A stretch of 21,915 bases of DNA from a virus, in the IMG/VR virus record IMGVR_UViG_3300008952_000334, positions 1 to 21,915 of that record, one strand, 5' to 3'. The position numbers were made by a program, and so were the translations under genes. Below are positions 9,952-21,900 of the stretch, in pieces; positions within the stretch are counted from its first letter, which is position 1, and each line of letters begins with the position of its first letter. The notes beneath the pieces were generated by a model. The model made no database searches and was not told the DNA's origin. It saw only the letters and a program-made list of their open reading frames with translations.

Positions 9952-12900
9952 CTATTGTAGTCCCTTCATGTCTGTTGTACCTGAAACTGGATTGCTATTG
10001 CTTCTTGAAAGGGCTAAGCTATATTTACCTTTTCGTTTTGAAAGTCCCTGTGCAATCTCATCAGCATCCATGGATAGGCTTAGGTTAACGGTAACGTTGA
10101 TAGGTTTATTGTTAACGGTAACTTTCTCTGTGGATATTGACATATTTTCACCAAAGGCATTTAATACGCCTCCGAGATCAATAGTCGGGATGCCGGTGGC
10201 CAATGTGTCATGCATATACTCCATCTCTTCCAAAACATGGGCGAATTGATCTACTACATTTGTAACTGCATCTGTCTTGAGTCCTTTTACGACTCCCATA
10301 AATTGCTTAAACCCACGGGCAAAATCTTTCATTGGCTTCAAGGTAGCAGTTAGGCTCTCAATCTTTGGTATAATCTCGCTAGAGCTTCCAACTTCCATTG
10401 CTGTCAGTGTAGTCATCAACTCTGGGACTGTTTTACCAACCCCTGAACTTTCATATCCCATTATCCAGTTTATACCCTGAAGCGCCGGCCCATATGCAGT
10501 ATATACTTCATTTGCTGTCATACCCTTGAGGGGTTCCATTACCTTTGCAAAATTGGCAACGGCACCCATAGCATCTGATATTACGCTCATTTTTTGAGCT
10601 GCTACTTCTGGATTTGCTATCTTAATACCCAATAGTGAATTAACGATCCTGGGAATATAATCAATTGCTGCATTAACAATTTTTTCTGTCGTCGCAAAGA
10701 ATTCCTTAAGATTATCCTCATCAGACTCAAACCACCCTGGCTCTGGTATCTGACCACTCATAGAACCTAAGGCACCTGCAAAATCTGATAGCGATTTCAT
10801 TGCTAGTGATACAACCTCAAGTTTTGGCTTCATTTCTTCGGGTTTTCCACCCACTGCATCAGCAGCGTCGGTTATTGTTTTTACAATTACAGGAATATGG
10901 GTTTTCATTGCACCCATAATTTTCTCAACAACATTCATATATGAAGTTATTGTTTCCTCGATGGTCGGGCCTGATCCAAAGAACGGCTGTTGCTCCTTAT
11001 TCATTTCAACAACCCCACCTGCCATTGCACCAAGAACCCCACCCATCTTGCCGACAGCATCCATAACTGCAGCTATGGCTTCTGCTTTCTTCTTGGTTGC
11101 TTCTGGTTTCGGGCCAAGATCGATTGCCATCATTTTTTCAATCATTGGAACAACAAGGTCCATCATTGAACCCATAATATCTTTCATTACTGTTGCATAT
11201 GATGTCATAATAGCACTAACATCCACCTTCTGTGGAAAGAAGCCACCGGCCATTGAAGACATTACCTCAAATAAACCAGGTGGAGGCTGGATTGCCGTCA
11301 TCAAGTTTGCTACCGCACCAAGGACACTCCCGATTGCCTCTAGTTTTTTGATCTGGCTTTCCTTCATATTCTTTGTTACCTTAACAAGGACAACAATTAG
11401 CACCATCGCACCCATCATCATTTTTTCCATAAAGTCTGCGGCGCCTTTAAGGATATCCTGTTCACTGCCTGTAGCATTTGATAGGACTTGTAATGCAGCT
11501 ATCTTTATAACGATATCACCCATACTTGCAACAGCACCAATAACGGTTGCTAGTGCTTGGGTCTTTTTCAAAACCTCAGTCGGATCACCCATGTCTGTGT
11601 CTGATATCGTTTTTAATGCCGGTGCAAGATACTTCATAGCAGCATCTGCAAGTTTGGAAACAGCCTGGAATCCTTTTTCTGCAACCCACATTACCATTGG
11701 GTGAGCAAATGGTGCTAATAAAATTGATGCGACTGCTAAAAACCCTAATGCCCCTACAATAACAGCCAGGGCTACCATATCTTTAGCCAAGGATACCATA
11801 TCACCGGCAGCATCTAATCCGGTTCTGATTATTGGTAACCAGGGTAAAAGAAATAAGTCCATTGCCTTAAAAAATACGCTAAGTAGTAATATACCACCGG
11901 CACCGAAGATACCAAATACACCTGCTGCAACAGCAGTTATAGCTAGAAGTTGAACTAGCGCAAATACTGCAGACAGCCCTAAGAACTGTTTACCAATCTT
12001 TAATGGATCTGCAGCCTCTGCCATCGTCTTTGATATATCTGCTATCCATCCAACAATTTTTGGCAAACCGTATAGGAAGGGTGTCATTAATAATAGCCCA
12101 ACGGCACCAACAGCCGCAATCACACCAGTGTATGATGCTATAGCAGCAAGGATTCCCAATGTCCCAAATACCAATGTTAGTTGTAGGAATTGTTTAGCTG
12201 CAGCTGCCCAGTCTAATCCAAACCCCAACAACGTTTCCATAGACTGACCAATTAGATCAACAATATAGGGTAGTACAAATACGAATGCACCGGCAGCAAT
12301 AAGGCCTATTGTTCCAACCGCAAATGCCTGAATTCCTAGGGCTGCAACAATTGCAATTAGCAATAGTGATCCTACAACAGCAGCAAGGCCAAGGAATTGT
12401 TTCCCAGCAGTCTTCCAATCAAGGCCTGTTGACATTAATTGTTTTGCAGATGTAGCTACCCATTCCATTACTTTTGGAAGTGCCTTAAGGAATATCCATA
12501 ATGGGATCATCCCAACCAATCCAGCAGTAAATGCAATTGCGCCGTATGCTAGGGCAACCGCCATCACGGCCATGGCAACAACCATCCCTGCCATCATAGC
12601 AAAACCTAATGCAGCCCCAACAGGATCCTTAATTTTTCGAACCTGTTGTGCTACCACATTTAATGTGTAGACAAAGCCGGCTGCTGCTGCCATCAATAAT
12701 AGATTACCTGCAATTAAGCCCACAACAGCAATTGCAGTTAGTGGGGTTGCTAACAATGCACCTGCGACGACCAGCGCTACCATTGCGGCTGCGGCTGCGG
12801 CCATAACTGCCAGTGAAACGATTGCGGCCGTCGGGTTAACTGCACTCATTGCCTTGGTAACGACAACAAGGGAAAGTGCATATGCAACCCCTGCAACCCC

Positions 12901-15501
12901 AAGGAGGACGGCACCCATTAACATACCAAGGCCAGACATTGCCATAGCTGCTAGACCTGCTTGATTACCTAGTGGGGCAGTTGCCAATAGCAGGGCACCT
13001 ATTGCAACAGCAGCACCAACTAATGCGAACATCCCTTTAGCCAGGGCCGCGAATGGAACAGTAGCTACTATCCTTGCAACAATAACCATTGTTGCCGCGA
13101 ATGCTATTAAAGAAACACCCATCAGTACAACCAATAGTGCTAGTATAAGTCCTGTCTTAATAACCTGGCCAGGACTTATTTTCGAAATAGATTCAAAAAA
13201 TCCGCGGAGGCCGTCACCCATAGGTGCAAACCCACCCTTTAACGATTTGCCCATCTTCTTTGCATCAGCACCACTACCTATCTGGGATGCGGCACCACTA
13301 GTAGCGCTACCAAAGAATTTAGAAAAGATACCTATAACTTTGCCAGCAATGGCACCTTTTACAGCACTAAGAGCCATTATCAAAAGCATTTTTCCTAGCA
13401 TAATGGCACCTACAGCAGCACCTACTTTTGCAATTGTTCCACCATGCTTCTCGAATAATACCTTAAGAAGATTCCCCATTGCCTTAACAAGTTGTGGTAA
13501 TGCTTCCTTTAGCGTTTCAAATGCTGAAACAAATGCAGCCTTTATTGCCGTACCGAATTGCCCAGAACCCTCTTTCTTTGGTTTAGCTAGCCAGTCTGCC
13601 AGCTTCTGGATCATCATGGCCATACCTTTTATCATAAGAGGTATCATCTTGATCATTCCAGATGCTATAGCGGCGAACATTTTCTTCATGCCGCCCCATA
13701 TCTTTGCCCATGCCTTGCCACCAGATCCAAAAAATTCACTAAATGTTGATGAAAGGCCTGCAAAAAGTTTTTCCATACTTAGCTTTCCAGTTTTAGGATC
13801 AAAAGCTTTCTTAAATGCATTCCTTACCCCGTCGGCCATTTTTTGAAACCTTGCAGGATTAAACATATCAGCTATTCCACCCAGAATATCTTTTATACCT
13901 GGAAAAAGCTGAACAAATGCTTTGCCTAAATCTCTGCCTAATCTCCACACAATTCTCATTGATTTATGGATATTTCGCAGCATATCCCTATATTCTTTTG
14001 TACGAGATACACCCTGGGTAAAGCCGTCCATAAGAGCGCCGAAGAAACTGGTACTTTGATTTCCGCTATCAAAAACCTTCTTAATTGATTTTGATAGCTC
14101 TTTCATAGCATCGGCTTGAGCAAGTGCGGAATCTTCAGCCTTGTCGGCACCTTCTGCTATTTCATCATAATCCGCATCACCTGATAATGCTGCCTTGGCT
14201 GCTTCCTCGGAAAGGCCCATTTGACTGGCTAATAATTTCAATTCCTGTCGGCTAAGGTCTTCTACACTCTTGCCAGTTGCATCGAATGATTTCTTCATCA
14301 TATCGATTCGTTTAGCAGGATCTTGTTCATTCATCATGGCCATGGCATCGATATTCATACCAAATGACTGTGCCAACATTGACGCGCTCTTTGCAGCATC
14401 TTCAAAGTTGTCAAACTTATCAATGACACCAGTGAGAGCCTTGATATCAATACCAAGCTTCTTGGCATATACTGACATTTTTGCAAGTTCTTTTGGTGCA
14501 AACGTTCCGAAGTTTGCTACATCCTTGGACATTTCGCCCATGGATTTTCCGATCTCTTTTGCAGAAAACCCAAACTGCTTACCCATTTGGATTGCATAAT
14601 TTGCAGTCTCATTTAGTGACTCTTCTAATGACTTCCCACTAGCCTTAGCATTGATACCAATGCCCTTCATAGCTTCACCTGACAGGCCGAGACCCTTGCC
14701 AAATATTACAAATGAAGCCCCCATCTTTTCGACTTGATCTTTAAGGACACTAAATGTTGCCCCCATCTGGGAAGCATTCTCATGCATATATTTCAATGCA
14801 GCAGCTGCGCCACCTGGGCCTGTACCAAAAACACTGGCCAATGACCGACCAGAACCAGCTAGGTTGCCTGCCTCTGATTGCATATCTCGAAATGACCCCA
14901 TGACTGCGGCGCCGGCGCCCGTGGATAGATCACCAAACTCTTCGCGCACGTCCTCTATGGCTTCACGTAGGGGACTCATACCACTATAGAGAGCATTGGC
15001 CTGAGATATTAGGCCACCAAGGATATCAAATGGCAGCGCAACTATTGACTTACCAATACTAAAAAAGCCTTTGGTAGTGCTACCTAAAAGTTTGACTAGG
15101 CCTTTTGCTTGTGATGCTGCGCCCTTTAGGCCGGTTATCATACCAACACCGGCACCAACTGCAGCCATCTTACCAGCCGTAAGATGCTTAGTTACCCCAC
15201 CCAGCATACCAGAAAGCCCACCCTTTCCAGCAGCGTCTGACGCATTTTGGAGTGCTTCGGAAGTACTGTCTCCCATTTCGCCGGCTTTTTGGGCAGCCTC
15301 TTCCATCCCGGCTTTAATACCGTTAAGGCGCTCCTCCATATCTTCAAGATCAGAGCAGTCAAGGGCCTTACACAATTCTTGAGCCATCTTGGTCTGGCCG
15401 GACAAATATCCGGCTTGAGCTTCAAGAACCTTAGTCCTCTGTTCAAGGACTTTATTGATCTGTGTTTGAATCCCTAACTGTTTATTAAGATCGTCAGCCA
15501 T
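9952..15501 (-). CDS. Tape measure protein
   Basis: The 1849-residue protein is the longest in the window and sits in the canonical place after tube and chaperone-like genes. It sets tail length and fills the tube before DNA ejection. Residues 1-90 are helical and coiled-coil-like; 95-480 are Gly/Ala/Lys-rich helices; 600-1275 are dominated by hydrophobic helices; 1300-1745 are amphipathic helices; the last 60 residues include a beta-rich patch. Two tandem-repeat arrays are present and annotated separately. No lysozyme, peptidase or other enzyme motif was found. At 0.15 nm per helical residue the protein could span about 277 nm, so a long tail is expected. The ATG has GGAG 10 nt upstream, and a 68-nt gap separates it from the previous gene. 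Confidence 0.9.
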   Translation of the reverse strand: MADDLNKQLGIQTQINKVLEQRTKVLEAQAGYLSGQTKMAQELCKALDCSDLEDMEERLNGIKAGMEEAAQKAGEMGDSTSEALQNASDAAGKGGLSGMLGGVTKHLTAGKMAAVGAGVGMITGLKGAASQAKGLVKLLGSTTKGFFSIGKSIVALPFDILGGLISQANALYSGMSPLREAIEDVREEFGDLSTGAGAAVMGSFRDMQSEAGNLAGSGRSLASVFGTGPGGAAAALKYMHENASQMGATFSVLKDQVEKMGASFVIFGKGLGLSGEAMKGIGINAKASGKSLEESLNETANYAIQMGKQFGFSAKEIGKSMGEMSKDVANFGTFAPKELAKMSVYAKKLGIDIKALTGVIDKFDNFEDAAKSASMLAQSFGMNIDAMAMMNEQDPAKRIDMMKKSFDATGKSVEDLSRQELKLLASQMGLSEEAAKAALSGDADYDEIAEGADKAEDSALAQADAMKELSKSIKKVFDSGNQSTSFFGALMDGFTQGVSRTKEYRDMLRNIHKSMRIVWRLGRDLGKAFVQLFPGIKDILGGIADMFNPARFQKMADGVRNAFKKAFDPKTGKLSMEKLFAGLSSTFSEFFGSGGKAWAKIWGGMKKMFAAIASGMIKMIPLMIKGMAMMIQKLADWLAKPKKEGSGQFGTAIKAAFVSAFETLKEALPQLVKAMGNLLKVLFEKHGGTIAKVGAAVGAIMLGKMLLIMALSAVKGAIAGKVIGIFSKFFGSATSGAASQIGSGADAKKMGKSLKGGFAPMGDGLRGFFESISKISPGQVIKTGLILALLVVLMGVSLIAFAATMVIVARIVATVPFAALAKGMFALVGAAVAIGALLLATAPLGNQAGLAAMAMSGLGMLMGAVLLGVAGVAYALSLVVVTKAMSAVNPTAAIVSLAVMAAAAAAMVALVVAGALLATPLTAIAVVGLIAGNLLLMAAAAGFVYTLNVVAQQVRKIKDPVGAALGFAMMAGMVVAMAVMAVALAYGAIAFTAGLVGMIPLWIFLKALPKVMEWVATSAKQLMSTGLDWKTAGKQFLGLAAVVGSLLLIAIVAALGIQAFAVGTIGLIAAGAFVFVLPYIVDLIGQSMETLLGFGLDWAAAAKQFLQLTLVFGTLGILAAIASYTGVIAAVGAVGLLLMTPFLYGLPKIVGWIADISKTMAEAADPLKIGKQFLGLSAVFALVQLLAITAVAAGVFGIFGAGGILLLSVFFKAMDLFLLPWLPIIRTGLDAAGDMVSLAKDMVALAVIVGALGFLAVASILLAPFAHPMVMWVAEKGFQAVSKLADAAMKYLAPALKTISDTDMGDPTEVLKKTQALATVIGAVASMGDIVIKIAALQVLSNATGSEQDILKGAADFMEKMMMGAMVLIVVLVKVTKNMKESQIKKLEAIGSVLGAVANLMTAIQPPPGLFEVMSSMAGGFFPQKVDVSAIMTSYATVMKDIMGSMMDLVVPMIEKMMAIDLGPKPEATKKKAEAIAAVMDAVGKMGGVLGAMAGGVVEMNKEQQPFFGSGPTIEETITSYMNVVEKIMGAMKTHIPVIVKTITDAADAVGGKPEEMKPKLEVVSLAMKSLSDFAGALGSMSGQIPEPGWFESDEDNLKEFFATTEKIVNAAIDYIPRIVNSLLGIKIANPEVAAQKMSVISDAMGAVANFAKVMEPLKGMTANEVYTAYGPALQGINWIMGYESSGVGKTVPELMTTLTAMEVGSSSEIIPKIESLTATLKPMKDFARGFKQFMGVVKGLKTDAVTNVVDQFAHVLEEMEYMHDTLATGIPTIDLGGVLNAFGENMSISTEKVTVNNKPINVTVNLSLSMDADEIAQGLSKRKGKYSLALSRSNSNPVSGTTDMKGLQ
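10282..11586 (-). repeat. Amphipathic tandem repeat array in the tape measure
   Basis: Residues about 1306-1740 contain six diverged copies of a second unit of 75-88 residues, starting near 1306, 1381, 1466, 1554, 1630 and 1708. Each has a charged cap (DPTEVLKK, KESQIKK, KPEATKKK, KPEEMKPK, NPEVAAQK, SSEIIPK), a helix with the pattern ..ALA.VIGAVA.M, then a Gly/Pro-rich link and another helix. This unit differs from the hydrophobic array just before it. Confidence 0.65.
11797..13059 (-). repeat. Hydrophobic tandem repeat array in the tape measure
   Basis: Residues about 815-1235 hold around six to seven diverged copies of a unit of roughly 65-74 residues. Each starts with a short Pro or Asp turn (VP 815, NP 889, DP 959, DW 1028, DW 1097, DP 1165, LD 1229), followed in the clearer copies by A..KQFLGL, a long hydrophobic helix, a Gly break, a second hydrophobic helix, and a final amphipathic helix. 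Copies at 1028, 1097 and 1165 are the most alike (KQF at 1034, 1103 and 1171). The membrane-like character fits tape measure parts thought to enter the host membrane at ejection. Confidence 0.7.
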
Positions 15502-15569: not shown

Positions 15570-15824
15570 TTATAACACCCAGGGGACACCCATTATATCT
15601 TGGAATCTCTGGGAGGCTTTATTCTTCTTTGTCAGCAGCTCTGTTACAAGCTCAAAGGTAGAATTATTATTACATAATGCCTCATATAGCTCTTTAGATG
15701 CAACAATTACATCCTTTGTTGCACCTACACGTTCCGGGGAACCTGATAGTTTTACACTTGTCTTTTTACCAAGAATATGTGCGGCCACTGTGGCATTAAA
15801 AGTATTATTTTTTGTTTGGCTCAT
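15570..15824 (-). CDS. Small protein of unknown function upstream of the tape measure
   Basis: An 84-residue protein starting at the ATG at 15824: AAGGGG lies about 8 nt before this codon, whereas the GTG (15833) and ATG (15830) further upstream are too close to or inside that site. The sequence begins polar, has a beta-prone stretch (KKTSVKLSGSPERV), then helices, and ends in FQDIMGVPWVL. No domain is recognised. It lies between the frameshifted chaperone-like gene and the tape measure, so a role in tape-measure or tube assembly is likely from position. Confidence 0.6.
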   Translation of the reverse strand: MSQTKNNTFNATVAAHILGKKTSVKLSGSPERVGATKDVIVASKELYEALCNNNSTFELVTELLTKKNKASQRFQDIMGVPWVL

Positions 15825-15859
15825 GTTCATCACCCCTTACTATCAATAACTATGGTGCA

Positions 15860-16120
15860 CTATGTAAAGCGCCTTAATTTAGAAGGAACTTGGGAACGTG
15901 CACGACCCATCATCGAACGAGCATCTGGGGTATTATGATGGGCAGCCCGGCTGCCCTGGTCATTATTTTGAGATGCCTTCAGCTCTTTATTGATTCTCTT
16001 AATGAACCATATTCTTTGCCAGATAGGAATCTTATAGCATTCACTATATGTGAATCCCATATAATACATTAACAAAAATGTATGTTCGAGAAATATCTCT
16101 TTATCATTCGGCGTCAGGCC
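15860..16120 (-). CDS. Frameshift extension of the chaperone-like gene (GT-type domain)
   Basis: This frame has no credible start of its own: the first usable codon is TTG at 16075 without a ribosome binding site, yet the frame is open without a stop from the seven T residues at 16121-16127 to the TAG at 15860-15862. Entered by a +1 or -2 shift it adds 86 (or 87) residues, beginning GLTPNDKEIFLEHTFLLMYY and containing FTYSECYKIPIWQRIWFIKR, an aromatic/basic motif. The full product would be 375-376 residues. In lambda-type tails the T extension of gpGT binds tube protein and tape measure; the same role is inferred here from the position between tube and tape measure. The alternative is a separately translated 71-residue protein. 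Confidence 0.75.
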   Translation of the reverse strand, partial: GLTPNDKEIFLEHTFLLMYYMGFTYSECYKIPIWQRIWFIKRINKELKASQNNDQGSRAAHHNTPDARSMMGRARSQVPSKLRRFT

Positions 16121-16988
16121 AAAAAAACGTGGCGCCCAAGGGCAGGCGCACCTCCGAGCTTTCGAAACAACTTGGACACTCCATCCATGACTTCATATCG
16201 ATTCCTGGCTCGTTTTTATCAATATGCTTTCGAAGAACCAACGAATCCCTTGCTGGCATATTTCGAATGAATAATCCAATTTTCCCCTTGTCGGTTGTTC
16301 CATCAATAGAGACTATAGCATGCTTAAGGCGTGTAGTTACAAGATTTTCGCCCTGAAGGCCTACCTTCTTTTGACGCTCAGAAGTTATCATAATTTCTTC
16401 TTCATCTTTGCCATCTAGAAATTTATATCTTACAGCCCTCTTTGTTACGGGAAGTGTAATCTCAAATAAATTAGCGCCTTCTGCAACAGGGTCAATTTCC
16501 AACCTCTTAATGGGTAGGCTAGCCAAGTCAAAAGCCTGCTTTGATCTTGTACTACATGCCGGGCAGTCTACTTCAACATTATACTCCTGACCGTAGCCTG
16601 TAATTCTTAATGCAGTCATAACAGCGTTACGATCACCTGCAATCATATCATTTGGATCAATCCGCTTATCAATCATACATGATTTAAGAAGGTGTGTAAT
16701 TACCGTACCCTTCTTAATCAATGCACGAGACGTAAGGATATCCTCTTCCTGAGCTGTCATTGCCTTAATCTCAATTGTTTCTTGGCCATGTAATGGGCTA
16801 TCTGGTGGATATACCCTACCTCTTGACGGAAGTGGTACCGCCTCTACTGGAACTTCATAACCAAAGTCTTCCTTCATTACATTTCGGCGTGGCATTGCCT
16901 CTGATGCGGACGACGTAAATATCTGGTTCTTATCTTCCCTAGATTCTGTCTTGCTAGTCTTTGTTTCGTCTGACACAGTTTTCTCCAT
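16104..16988 (-). CDS. gp26-like zinc-ribbon protein, probable tail-assembly chaperone (G-type)
   Basis: The 294-residue zero-frame product (ATG at 16988; a TTG directly before it is ignored) has a polar N-terminus of about 45 residues, then a block typical of the T4 baseplate gp26-type family (PF12322): VPLPSRGRVYP, IEIKAMTAQEEDILTSRALI, DRNAVMTALRITGYGQEYNV. Two Cys pairs, CPAC (142-145) and CPSC (271-274), probably bind one zinc ion. In T4, gp26 is needed for the baseplate hub. Here the gene occupies the slot between tube and tape measure that in most tailed phages holds tail-assembly chaperones, and its last codons run over seven T residues into an overlapping open frame. No strong ribosome binding site is visible before the ATG. 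The family call is good; the chaperone role is inferred. Confidence 0.8.
   Translation of the reverse strand: MEKTVSDETKTSKTESREDKNQIFTSSASEAMPRRNVMKEDFGYEVPVEAVPLPSRGRVYPPDSPLHGQETIEIKAMTAQEEDILTSRALIKKGTVITHLLKSCMIDKRIDPNDMIAGDRNAVMTALRITGYGQEYNVEVDCPACSTRSKQAFDLASLPIKRLEIDPVAEGANLFEITLPVTKRAVRYKFLDGKDEEEIMITSERQKKVGLQGENLVTTRLKHAIVSIDGTTDKGKIGLFIRNMPARDSLVLRKHIDKNEPGIDMKSWMECPSCFESSEVRLPLGATFFWPDAE
16121..16127 (-). promoter_or_regulatory. Slippery heptamer for programmed frameshift
   Basis: In the sense strand the zero frame reads ACG TTT TTT TGG. With tRNA-Phe on the second TTT and a Trp codon next, a +1 slip gives a perfect TTT re-pairing and continues GGC CTG ACG; a -2 slip also re-pairs perfectly and adds one Phe. 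A -1 slip would hit TGA after two codons. Zero-frame translation ends only five codons later at TGA (16104-16106). Confidence 0.75.
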
Positions 16989-17066: not shown

Positions 17067-17101
17067 AAAAAAGACAAAAGCCCTCCACTGGAGGGCTTTT
17101 G
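17067..17101 (-). terminator. Rho-independent terminator after sheath and tube genes
   Basis: On the minus strand a perfect 12-bp stem (CAAAAGCCCTCC / GGAGGGCTTTTG, loop AGT; 17075-17101) is followed by TTTTGTCTTTTTT. The GC core is seven pairs. It lies about 40 nt after the tube stop codon and separates the highly expressed sheath and tube genes from the chaperone and tape-measure genes. Confidence 0.92.
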
Positions 17102-17140
17102 AGACCTAGTTACTGATTTACAGTAGTATATAGAAGAGTG

Positions 17141-17629
17141 CTAGTACTGTAGGACAGCGTTGTCAAAACGAATTGTAATTGCGACCTCAGTGGGATCTTC
17201 ACCCGCATAATCTAATTCGCCAAAAGCAGCAGACTCAAGAAAGCACCCCTTGAGGTCCCATAGTTCAACTACGGTTCCAACAGGATCAAGCAGTTTGAGT
17301 TGACAATCACGCTTATAAAAATCAGCATAACCTGCGCGACCAGACACAGATTCAAAGTGAGTACGAACCCATTCCATGACCTGTTGTGCACCCGAGGGAG
17401 CAATAGGATCGTGCAGCGTTACAGAAATTGCATCAAACTTTGTTTTTCCAGCAAGGAACCTTGTTGAGTTCATATACGCAACTTCTTGTGAAGCAGTATT
17501 AATAGTCGGGCGAGCGGCAGTCTTCATTAAGAATGCATCGATTCCCTCGATTGCAAAGACCCATCTAAATTTGCGCTTCGGCTCAAACTTATTGGGAAGC
17601 ATATCAGTAACGGATAGTGTTTCGGCCAT
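17141..17629 (-). CDS. Tail tube protein, T4 gp19-like
   Basis: A 162-residue protein, almost the same length as T4 gp19 (163 residues). It has the family's opening (LPNKFEPKRKFRWVFAIEGI, about 11-30), a central segment around WVRTHFES, and the typical C-terminal strands (KGCFLESAAFGELDYAGEDP, then TEVAITIRFDNAVL). It polymerises as stacked hexameric rings to form the inner tail tube through which DNA passes. AGGAG lies 9 nt upstream of the ATG, and the 53-nt gap to the sheath stop contains only an imperfect inverted repeat. It is the last gene before a strong terminator. The family call is firm. Confidence 0.93.
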   Translation of the reverse strand: MAETLSVTDMLPNKFEPKRKFRWVFAIEGIDAFLMKTAARPTINTASQEVAYMNSTRFLAGKTKFDAISVTLHDPIAPSGAQQVMEWVRTHFESVSGRAGYADFYKRDCQLKLLDPVGTVVELWDLKGCFLESAAFGELDYAGEDPTEVAITIRFDNAVLQY

Positions 17630-17682: not shown

Positions 17683-20600
17683 TTATACTTCCATTCCAGC
17701 GTTTGTAACCACGAAATCCAAAGAGATGAATTCCACAGTACGTGTTGGTTGCAAGAAAATCTTCCCGCGCACAGTGTTGTTTTCAACATCAGCTTGGGTT
17801 GTTGTTGTTGTATCAATTACAACCTTGAACTTATCAAGACCTTGCTGTTGCTGGATCCTTTGAAGGATCGGGTTGACCGCGTTCGAGAAGCGTGCTAGCG
17901 TCTCTGCCCGGTTTGGTTCGAACAAGAGGGTATTTCCGACTCGCTTAACCTGGCGCCTAATCTCAATGAGTAGACGACGTACATTGACCCTATCAAGTGC
18001 ACTCTTAGCGGCTTGCAGTGTCTTCTGGCCCCAGACCACAACTCCAGGAGTGTGTGGGAAGGCTGAGAGAGGATTGATATCCGCCTCATATAGTGCATCA
18101 AGGTTTGCTCTATTAAGCTTAACCTGGGACTCTACAACCCTAGCAAGGGCACCTCTTGTGAAACCAGCTGGGGCAAACCACGGATGTGCTACTGCATCGT
18201 TAAGTGCAAAGGCACCCAAGACTGCAACTGATGGTGGGCATAATACGTTTGTTCTCGTTGCCGGGTCAGGTACTACCACATCTGGGAAGTATGCTGCGGC
18301 AAATGATGTATCAAGGTTTCTGCCAAGCAGATCCTCTACAGTGTTTGAAACGCTAATAACTTGATCGGCTTTATTTTCAACCAAATCATTTACATCATCA
18401 CGTTCAATAACATCCATAATCAACATTGCGTCGAAGCGATCCTCACAGGTATCAATTGCATACTCTGTAACAGATGCATCTCTGAGGCCTGGAATTGCCA
18501 GCAATTTAATATCAACATCAGCTTTTTCAGCCATTACGTCGAGGGCCTTACGGTATGATGCAACTGTTGGTCCATCAACACCACCTTGTTGTTGGGAATC
18601 TAACATTTCTCTACGGCATGCAAGATCAGTCATCTTGGCTTTATTTTTGTCTAGAATATTCAAACCATCGAATCCACCTTGTAGGAAGAAACTAAACTTG
18701 CGATACTTTCTAGCAGCAATGCTTGAGAAATCTTCTTGGAAGTGTGCACCACCAAGAAGGCGAGGGGTATGTGTATCCCATGAAGTTGCGCCGGTTGCCT
18801 CTGCATCCCTACGGTATACAGCCTCATTCCACTTCTTATTATCGAGCAGCCCTGATTCGAGGTCAATACCTTGAACCTCAACATTTTCAAGTGAGAAAGC
18901 ATTTCGGTTGAATCTATCGGAGTCTAGTACTGAAACCAACCCGTCGAGTGTATCATCAGGAGTACCTGCGTTATCGCCAACAGATAGGTTTAACCATCCA
19001 TCATGGAAGTCAGGGAAATACTTGGTCAGTCCATAAATTGACTTGTCAAATACCCTACTCTTATTCGGCTCAACTGGATCATCATTAACCTGGAACTGGA
19101 CACCCCAGTGTAGATTGCTACTAGCTTTTCTTCTGGGATCTTGCCCTGTTGTAATGTCCTGCCGCATTGGAACTGGGATCTGCACTATTTCGCTTAGTGG
19201 GTCGGTTGTGAATAATACTTCACTGTCGTCTGTTTGATCAAGGCCCATTGGAGAAGAACTAAGGAGACTGTCTGCCAGGAATCCAGGGGAGCCTGCAGAA
19301 GATGCACCAGCGGATGTTGCATCAACAGTACCTGAGGTTACTAGGTGGTTGTGACCACGGAAGCCTACTGGTAATGCAGAGTCATCAATTGTATTTCTGT
19401 CAACTTCACCAGCCATCTCAACGCGGATATACTTGGATCGGTTAGGATGAATCCCATCTATTACTAGTTTTTGTGAACCTTCAGGCTTATCAAAATCATA
19501 ATAGGTGTATTGGTCACCAATCACCCTGGCTATATAGCGCTCAGATGTTGGATCAATACTCAGTTTATAGAACTTTTCAAGTGCAACGATGTTATCATCA
19601 TCATCTTCCATTGCTCTAACAAATAAGTCGAATGTACCGAAGTCGGTTGATTCATTACTTGATGCAGCAATACTTGAGATAGAAATCTTGAATCCATTAC
19701 TACCTGCAGTACCATCATCTAGGGCATGAATCTTAAATAGGTTCTTTACCTTGCCACCGAACTTCTGTGATGTTACCCATGGCGACTTTGCGGTACGATA
19801 TCTATCTTCAAAACATTCTGGGTTCGGAATTATACTCGTACCATCATCGCGGGCCAATGATCCTGTTACCAGGAATGCGGCTTCAACCATATCTGTCATT
19901 GAAGCTGCAGTTAGATTACCGTAGTTCCCGCCTGATAGGTAGTCGACATCAATAATGCCAGTACCACCAGCAACACCATGATTTGTGTGTACATCCCATG
20001 AGGTATATAAGCAGTGACCAGCTTTCTCAGTGCAAGATGGGTCAGTATTAAAGATATTCCTAAAGTAATCTGGTGCAACAGGGTCAAGTGATGCAGTAAG
20101 AATGTTTGGGTGGGCAGGGGTGTTAACATGGCCATTCAATAGCATAACAAACTGTTGTCCTGCATTTGCTCTATTTACTGTGCCCCACATGTACCCACCA
20201 TCATCAGTGGCTGTGTTTGTACCAAACTGGCCTCGAGCTTCTGAGGAAGGAGCATTGTTTCCATTATCTGGAGTATTGTCACCACCTTGGTAATATGAAC
20301 TTGATAGTGAGAGCAATACACCGGATGGTGCTAATATAACACCACGTAGTATCGGTGCAGCCTGCTCATCTGAAATTATTGTTCCATCTACAGAGATACC
20401 TGCATCAGAAAAGAGATTTGATGTTGCAGTTTCTTCTGTAAGGCAACCAAGGAAGTATGTACGCCCAAGTGCTGGAGCAACCTGGCCGATTGCCGCGATG
20501 CCACCAGCAAACTCTGCATCAACTATAATGTTAGCATCGCCGGCACCACCTTCGGTGATGGCTGTATTGCCAAGTACAACACCTGCCGGTGCGGCGCCTG

Positions 20601-21900
20601 CCTGTGTCAACTGAACCGAGGGATTGCCGTTATTTAGAACCGCAAGGGCTGTCATTGTAGCGGAACCACCTTGAGTACCGGTAGAACTTGCATCATTAAT
20701 AAGTGCTACTAAATCATCCTGTAGTTCTTCTGCTGTTGTCCTTGCATCTACGCCGTTATCAAACTCGTTCTCATTGGTGCCAAGGCTATTAAGGAATCTA
20801 ATTCCTCTATCAGCCGCCGCGGGGGAGCCATGAGTGGGATCTGTTACAAGGCCACCTGCAATCTCCTGATCATCAGGGTCACTATAGGCGCCTACAGAAT
20901 CTGCAGTGACAGTACATGTGGCGGCATGTGTAATGTTGGGTGACCAGACTGGAGTGCCCAATACATAGTCAGTATTACCAAGTGCTGTTAGGACTGCAGC
21001 CATAAAGTTATGAACTGGTGCCTTGTTCAATGCGGCGTCGAAGTCCAATGCATTGGCCACAGAGTCTCCAGCAAAACCGGCTTGGGCACCGAAAGCATGC
21101 GGATTTGCCTGAGTGTCAGCCAAATCTTGAATACCAATTGTTGTTGAATTTGATTGATTTACATTCTGTAGAGGGTCAATCACAAAGTGGTAATCTGTAT
21201 CACCATCTTTATCATGAATGGTCAATGTCTGATTTTGAAGTGCTGTTTCTGCATTAGCAATAGAGGCATATCCGGCGATAAAATCATTACCTATCGCTAA
21301 TTCCAGTTCAGCAGCATTACCACTACCATCGTTTAAGTCGACTGTATCAGCACCTGCTGTATTTTGGCCGGTGGCTGATATCGTAATGGTTATAGGATCA
21401 TTATCTATATCTAAAAGCTCGATTGATGTCAGTGTGCCTGCAATGGCACCGGCCCCGCCGGCTATTTCTATAATTGCTGTTGCCTGCTCAGCTGGAATGC
21501 CTGCCGAAGGACCGGCAAAGGCGTTTTCACCCAGGAGACCATTAGACTGGGGTTGCTCAGCACCAACACTGAATCCAGCGTTAGTAACTCGCCCAGCATT
21601 AGGAGAACTGGTAGTTCTTCGATTACCATCCCCTACACCAAGTGTTCTTACATAAGTTCCTGCTCTAGAGTTCTTCATCCACTCGTATACTGCTAGTGGA
21701 CCGAACTTCTCGCCATCGGAAGTTCCGAATTCGGCGACGAAGTCTTGATACGTAGCGAATGTGATTGGAACGAAAGCCCGTCCCTTTAGTGACATGCCGA
21801 TTACGCCAGCAGGTGTTCCCTGCGGTTTGACTGTAGTCGGTCCACTTAAGTCAATTTCGCGAGTAGCTACTCCGGCACTCTTAAAGGTCAATTCAGCCAT
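17683..21900 (-). CDS. Contractile tail sheath protein with large insertion
   Basis: A 1405-residue protein, more than twice the length of T4 gp18 (659). The first 95 residues are sheath-like (FKSAGVATREIDLSGPTTV, VIGMSLKGRAFVPITFATYQ, AVYEWMKNSRAGTYVRTLG). The C-terminal third (about 1040-1405) has the conserved sheath core: a DGLNILDK region, GPTVASYRKALDVM, PPSVAVLGAFALNDAVAHPW, GQKTLQ, NVRRLLIEIRRQV, and the closing strand set RGKIFLQPTRTVEFISLDFV. Between lie several hundred residues of Gly/Ala/Asp/Asn-rich beta-type sequence (see separate entry). The protein forms the contractile tube that drives the tail through the host envelope. AGGAG sits 8 nt before the ATG (21909-21913). The gene start is only 15 nt from the window edge, so any promoter is out of view. 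Confidence 0.92.
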   Translation of the reverse strand: MAELTFKSAGVATREIDLSGPTTVKPQGTPAGVIGMSLKGRAFVPITFATYQDFVAEFGTSDGEKFGPLAVYEWMKNSRAGTYVRTLGVGDGNRRTTSSPNAGRVTNAGFSVGAEQPQSNGLLGENAFAGPSAGIPAEQATAIIEIAGGAGAIAGTLTSIELLDIDNDPITITISATGQNTAGADTVDLNDGSGNAAELELAIGNDFIAGYASIANAETALQNQTLTIHDKDGDTDYHFVIDPLQNVNQSNSTTIGIQDLADTQANPHAFGAQAGFAGDSVANALDFDAALNKAPVHNFMAAVLTALGNTDYVLGTPVWSPNITHAATCTVTADSVGAYSDPDDQEIAGGLVTDPTHGSPAAADRGIRFLNSLGTNENEFDNGVDARTTAEELQDDLVALINDASSTGTQGGSATMTALAVLNNGNPSVQLTQAGAAPAGVVLGNTAITEGGAGDANIIVDAEFAGGIAAIGQVAPALGRTYFLGCLTEETATSNLFSDAGISVDGTIISDEQAAPILRGVILAPSGVLLSLSSSYYQGGDNTPDNGNNAPSSEARGQFGTNTATDDGGYMWGTVNRANAGQQFVMLLNGHVNTPAHPNILTASLDPVAPDYFRNIFNTDPSCTEKAGHCLYTSWDVHTNHGVAGGTGIIDVDYLSGGNYGNLTAASMTDMVEAAFLVTGSLARDDGTSIIPNPECFEDRYRTAKSPWVTSQKFGGKVKNLFKIHALDDGTAGSNGFKISISSIAASSNESTDFGTFDLFVRAMEDDDDNIVALEKFYKLSIDPTSERYIARVIGDQYTYYDFDKPEGSQKLVIDGIHPNRSKYIRVEMAGEVDRNTIDDSALPVGFRGHNHLVTSGTVDATSAGASSAGSPGFLADSLLSSSPMGLDQTDDSEVLFTTDPLSEIVQIPVPMRQDITTGQDPRRKASSNLHWGVQFQVNDDPVEPNKSRVFDKSIYGLTKYFPDFHDGWLNLSVGDNAGTPDDTLDGLVSVLDSDRFNRNAFSLENVEVQGIDLESGLLDNKKWNEAVYRRDAEATGATSWDTHTPRLLGGAHFQEDFSSIAARKYRKFSFFLQGGFDGLNILDKNKAKMTDLACRREMLDSQQQGGVDGPTVASYRKALDVMAEKADVDIKLLAIPGLRDASVTEYAIDTCEDRFDAMLIMDVIERDDVNDLVENKADQVISVSNTVEDLLGRNLDTSFAAAYFPDVVVPDPATRTNVLCPPSVAVLGAFALNDAVAHPWFAPAGFTRGALARVVESQVKLNRANLDALYEADINPLSAFPHTPGVVVWGQKTLQAAKSALDRVNVRRLLIEIRRQVKRVGNTLLFEPNRAETLARFSNAVNPILQRIQQQQGLDKFKVVIDTTTTTQADVENNTVRGKIFLQPTRTVEFISLDFVVTNAGMEV
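20101..21603 (-). other. Inserted, probably surface-exposed region of the sheath
   Basis: Residues about 100-600 of the sheath are poor in Lys and Arg and rich in Gly, Ala, Asp, Asn and Thr. Two related beta-type modules can be seen: one around 220-345 (TLTIHDKDGDTDYHFVID, NKAPVHNFMAAVLTAL, TCTVTADSVGAYSDPDDQEI) and one around 360-465 (GIRFLNSLGTNENEF, AEELQDDLVALINDA, PSVQLTQAGAAPAG). Such modules resemble the repeated decoration or adhesin-like domains of tail proteins in environmental phages. They would lie on the outside of the contracted or extended sheath. Confidence 0.55.

Follow-up and report, generated by a model that had tools for sequence, protein, structure and literature searches.

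A probable +1 ribosomal frameshift in a T4 gp26-type gene between the tail tube and tape measure genes of a contractile-tailed phage

In a 21.9 kb virus contig (IMG/VR record IMGVR_UViG_3300008952_000334; 21,915 nucleotides in full, hereafter the window), a gene related to T4 gp26 lies on the minus strand between the genes for the tail tube and the tape measure. We propose, with a probability of roughly 0.88, that it is the tail assembly chaperone gene of a T4-like contractile-tailed phage and that it makes two proteins. Most ribosomes would stay in the zero frame and produce G, a protein of ~290 residues with a zinc ribbon that ends in FFWP and three further residues. A minority, with peptidyl-tRNA-Phe on UUU (16124-16122) and the rarer UGG in the A site, would slip +1 onto UUU and continue with GGC, yielding G-T, which is G extended by an 86-residue helical domain. 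By analogy with phage lambda, we infer that G-T would be the rarer product, that G would coat the tape measure and that the T domain of G-T would bring the tube protein. A first-pass annotation of the window had suggested a tail assembly chaperone pair in which a programmed frameshift extends a gp26-type zinc protein into the downstream frame, and the comparative evidence presented here supports that suggestion.

The gp26-like gene (16104..16976, minus strand, as are all window features below) ends with ACG TTT TTT TGG CCT GAC GCC GAA TGA, in which the seven-T run occupies 16127-16121 and the stop codon 16106-16104. The candidate P-site codon is UUU at 16124-16122, the skipped base would be 16121, and the next codon in the new frame would be GGC at 16120-16118; in the window, UGG, the zero-frame A-site codon, is used 8.4 times and GGC 23.7 times per 1000 codons. 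The +1 frame reads FGLTPNDKEIFLEHTF... and stays open past the zero-frame stop to a TAG at 15862-15860, with the T-like domain spanning 15860..16120. The first pass had reported the TTT TTT TGG run, the zero-frame stop five codons on and the other frame open to 15860, and all were confirmed in the minus-strand sequence, as was the prompt end of a -1 slip, which meets a TGA three codons on. Its statement that the small frame is open from that exact point held in part: the frame is indeed open through to 15860, but it is already open ~65 nt before the T run. The lack of a convincing start of its own was borne out, the earliest possible one being a TTG at 16075, 15 codons inside the conserved domain.

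Relatives were collected in two IMG/VR scans that gave 66 and 80 loci (in the second, 80 were kept of 577 relatives reported), and a genome scan added two Flavobacteriales contigs from metagenome-assembled genomes (MAGs). Some loci were the same contig fetched twice, and merging left 107 distinct sequences with the window included. Querying phage records directly with the small frame gave no matches, and relatives were reached only via the G gene. The junction is covered in 141 loci, with TTT TTT TGG in 131, TTC TTT TGG in nine and TTC TTC TGG in one. TTY TTT TGG followed by the same +1 domain was present in 140 loci (107 distinct), with an invariant W codon. The second Phe codon is TTT in 107/107 distinct loci, compared with 79% TTT among Phe codons elsewhere in these genes (230/290, 38 representatives) and 67-93% in other conserved Phe columns, and the codons preceding it vary freely. 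We counted 131 copies of TTTTTTTGG on the gene strand across 833 kb of related DNA, 130 of them at this site. Judged by these counts, the conservation of the site is not due to chance.

The T run and the overlap first described in the window are thus conserved in its homologues, which also answer the two reservations raised at the outset, a homopolymer error and a separate start for the small frame. An error of sequencing or assembly in a gene that is truly continuous, with six or eight T, might be suspected given that homopolymers are error prone and the contigs metagenomic. It is nevertheless extremely improbable: the same frame relation recurs in 107 distinct loci from many samples, including four-T variants, the isolate Mel-JY01 and MAGs, and the zero frame retains FFWP and stops 1-5 codons past FFW. 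Seven consecutive T could also favor slippage of the RNA polymerase, with the fusion arising from mixed transcripts. We regard this as highly improbable, since the frame relation is kept with only four T (TTCTTTTGG, nine loci) or three (phage BRock), which is too short for known slippage, and the run keeps one codon phase throughout.

The direction of the shift was initially left as either +1 or -2. In the window both do re-pair, as the seven-T run lets UUU re-pair after -2 as well as after +1, and a -2 slip, as in phage Mu, would give the same fusion with one extra Phe. The relatives make +1 very likely, because TTC TTT TGG variants and distant UUU_C sites disallow re-pairing after -2. In the nine TTC TTT TGG loci, which argue against transcriptional slippage and homopolymer error as well, tRNA-Phe would re-pair well only after +1 (UUU to UUU), with -2 placing it on UCU. 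Likewise, CTG TTT C in BRock and LuckySocke would give UGU after -2, and both re-pair after +1. A -2 slip is, in our judgment, improbable. Both UUU and UUC are read by tRNA-Phe, and a +1 shift would therefore cost no pairing. More distant isolates with the domain in +1 have, at the corresponding position, UUU followed by U or C, namely Mel-JY01 (UUU_UGG), BRock (UUU_CGC), LuckySocke (UUU_CAG), GXN1 (UUU_CGU), SP-15 (UUU_CAC), LR756508 (UUU_CUA) and immuto (UUU_CUU_UGG). At such UUU_U and UUU_C sites the P-site tRNA-Phe could re-pair on UUU_Y, and the rarer UGG may serve as the slow zero-frame A-site codon. PMC7230728 cites UUU_CGN as a known +1 site, and in the prfB context UUU ranks with the codons most prone to +1 shifting (PMC10885494). 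As a separate observation, LIS04 (L070), SP-15 (L071) and GXN1 (L072) share CC CGA TTY a few codons past the Phe codons, which is a candidate alternative shift site.

The +1 frame has the consensus Gl....re..LEe.f.Lm.h..l..sY...r.lPv.yR.WFi.rl. We compared 49 pairs of loci of 80-98% identity and obtained ratios of nonsynonymous to synonymous differences (pN/pS) of 0.060 in the +1 frame, 0.055 in the upstream zero frame, and 3.8 and 2.3 for the other two frames, figures that are descriptive because the pairs share branches. By this measure the +1 frame encodes a conserved small domain, predicted to be helical, under purifying selection as strong as that in the zero frame. It might still be a separate gene, translated from the TTG at 16075 or by ribosomes that re-initiate past the zero-frame stop. 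Gene callers annotate it apart in Mel-JY01, immuto and SP-15, and the huge phage LR756511 starts the domain with an ATG that overlaps the stop codon of the preceding gene. However, selection is equally strong ahead of any likely start (pN/pS 0.054 in +1-frame codons 6-15, same 49 pairs), 43 of the 107 distinct loci have no ATG, GTG or TTG from the preceding +1-frame stop to codon 15, and loci L062 and L170 fuse the same domain in frame at the same FF point. A separate gene is thus very improbable.

The T domains match DUF6760 (PF20546), the best E being 1.2e-7, and 21 of the 56 members reach E <= 0.1; that of the window scores 15.6 bits, which is below the curated cut-off of 27. G and T were modelled as separate structures. 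The T model comprises three helices with a predicted local distance difference test score (pLDDT) over 90, and a Foldseek search with it against the PDB returned no significant match. When distant T domains were compared with shuffled controls by profile, those of immuto, L062, LuckySocke, LR756511, LR756508 and GXN1 scored above all shuffles. In the same test SP-15, LIS04 and BRock scored among the best shuffles, and XacN1 was absent from the listed matches.

G, which carries two CxxC pairs, is over the curated cut-off for PF12322 (T4_baseplate; E 1.4e-11, 45 bits against a cut-off of 24.5, residues 68-290) and matches phrog_150 (E 1.8e-16). Its model (pLDDT 85) is of the gp26/gp51 fold and has matches among predicted T4-type hub proteins from many phages. 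For the N-terminal part (residues ~30-140), the three best of 723 PDB chains are YqbN (3klu), the HK97 tail assembly chaperone (2ob9) and 3fgx, all proteins of the tail assembly chaperone type, with modest Z scores of 5.6-5.7, and Foldseek found no match for the G model in the PDB at E <= 0.001. The predicted fold may be of the tail assembly chaperone type, the PDB scores being modest alone and telling together with gene position. Sheath, tube, G/T and tape measure genes follow in this order both in the window and in the isolates. In the window the two overlapping frames lie between the tube and tape measure genes, as in gpG/gpGT-type chaperones, with one open reading frame (ORF) of 87 residues intervening before the tape measure. 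This position and the predicted fold together point to a gpG/gpGT system that uses a protein of the Pfam T4_baseplate family as its G.

The frameshift could be real and its products act only in assembly of the baseplate hub, not as tape-measure chaperones. In its favor, PMC3004832 lists both T4 proteins, gp26 and gp51, as chaperones of hub assembly, and the PHROGs label for the family is baseplate hub. We think this unlikely, albeit deserving of some weight, given the location of the gene, flanked by those for tube and tape measure, and the predicted G fold, for which tail assembly chaperones are the best PDB matches. Moreover, in T4 the tape measure protein, gp29, is one of the components of the hub (PMC3004832), and therefore hub and tape-measure roles need not differ.

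Several points weigh against the proposal that this gene makes G and G-T by a +1 shift. The case for two products rests on sequence comparison, gene order and predicted structure, and the Z scores of 5.6-5.7 are under the value of 8 needed to stand alone. The Phe codon statistics count related loci as independent. We looked across the 107 distinct loci for an upstream stimulator resembling a Shine-Dalgarno sequence and for a downstream structure, and found neither conserved. Finally, the Listeria phage LIS04 is an exception among the isolates, having TTT TTT AGT (UUU_UUU_AGU), where a single-codon slip is less clear.

Other arrangements of G and T serve as natural controls. In L062, FFWP is encoded with TTC TTC TGG and no T domain follows in +1; the next gene is a second, full-length gp26-like copy that continues in frame into the T domain. 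In L170 and L171, two Bacteroidota genomes with injection-system-like clusters, a gene after a tube-like gene carries both PF12322 and PF20546, which meet at FF in a single frame. In the huge phage LR756511 (L082, after 3771), the T domain is probably produced by coupled translation instead of a shift, because its ATG overlaps the stop of the gp26-like gene. Two further loci were observed. The Xanthomonas phage XacN1 (L084, 3738-3998) has a helical-looking small frame in -1, with GCT TTT TTT ATT at the junction, whose homology to the T domain is not supported by sequence. L169 (647-900, minus strand), a Bacteroidota cluster resembling contractile injection systems, has a DUF6760 frame without a start near its beginning, in -1 to a short zinc-motif gene and with TCG GGG GAA before the stop, a possible -1 frameshift outside phages.

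In the window, the minus-strand order is sheath (1405 residues), tube (162 residues), gp26-like gene, small frame, 87-residue ORF, tape measure (1849 residues) and further genes. The likely start of the zero-frame gene is GTG 16976 instead of ATG 16988, because a GGAG lies six bases upstream of the former; neither ATG 16988 nor the listed TTG starts have a ribosome binding site. The T4 gp19-like tube gene (17141..17629), upstream of the chaperone gene, was assigned with phrog_4542 (E 4.6e-29) and PF06841 (E 1.9e-4), and the tape measure gene (9952..15501), downstream of it, with phrog_167 (E 4.2e-5) and position. A terminator-like hairpin with a T tract lies between the tube and chaperone genes (17071..17104). 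Similar hairpins are found at this boundary in 24 of 38 relatives, compared with 1 of 30 control regions, and one is annotated there in SP-15; such hairpins may set the ratio of sheath/tube to chaperone/tape-measure expression. The 87-residue ORF (15570-15833), which separates the T frame from the tape measure, has a similar-sized counterpart in L004, but many relatives pass directly to a long ORF. The sheath gene (17683-21900) is unusually long, with the sheath profile confined to the C-terminal third.

These results would place a tail-length chaperone frameshift in the T4 gp26/gp51 family, previously thought to be without it, and would bring 'baseplate hub' proteins whose role in T4 is not agreed on into the best understood tail-length system. 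They also offer a large natural series of a clean bacterial +1 shift site, along with its evolutionary replacement by gene duplication and fusion. Current annotations label the first frame a hub protein and the second hypothetical, or omit the second. The literature searched names no frameshift in gp26-family genes, but coverage was partial and priority is not claimed.

According to Atkins et al. (PMC5009743), long-tailed phages widely conserve the G-T frameshift, T4 being the exception. T4 gp26 (208 residues) and gp51 (249 residues) both belong to PF12322 and share PHROG family and predicted fold type with the G of the window; they differ in being two separate genes, with no frameshift, placed with hub genes away from the tube gene. 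Beyond its zinc region gp51 carries ~50 additional residues. Profile-profile comparison aligns them with the T domain at a score of 22.1, where the highest of 300 column shuffles reached 17.3; when T4 gp51 C termini were scanned with a single T profile, they did not exceed shuffles. gp51 is required for assembly and absent from the particle (PMC3004832), as expected of a chaperone. We infer, with moderate support and as the least proven step, that gp26 corresponds to G and gp51 to GT, made from two genes in T4; if so, the last 50 residues of gp51 should act as a T domain. On balance we favor, with considerable reserve, the broader reading that the gp26/gp51 family is the gpG/gpGT system. T4 would then use two diverged gene copies as L062 does, the same two products would come in its relatives from +1 shifts, from overlapping genes, from in-frame fusion or perhaps, in XacN1, from a -1 shift, and contractile injection systems would carry the same pair.

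Listeria phage PSA, offered in the first-pass annotation as a +1 chaperone precedent, is not one, as its +1 shifts affect cps, for the capsid, and tsh, for the tail shaft (PMC5009743). The known +1 chaperone precedents are the haloviruses HSTV-2 and the HF1 group (PMC5009743, PMC7230728), which differ in having UUU_CGC, shared here only with BRock-type relatives; the HF2 chaperone proteins match neither PF12322 nor PF20546 and are thus not in these Pfam families. The predicted G fold in the window shows a modest resemblance to the HK97 chaperone and YqbN, a likeness to the gpG/gpGT pair of lambda (Xu et al. 2004, as cited in PMC5009743). The lambda shift is -1, whereas that proposed for the window is +1 at UUU_U, with a larger, zinc-containing G of the T4_baseplate family.
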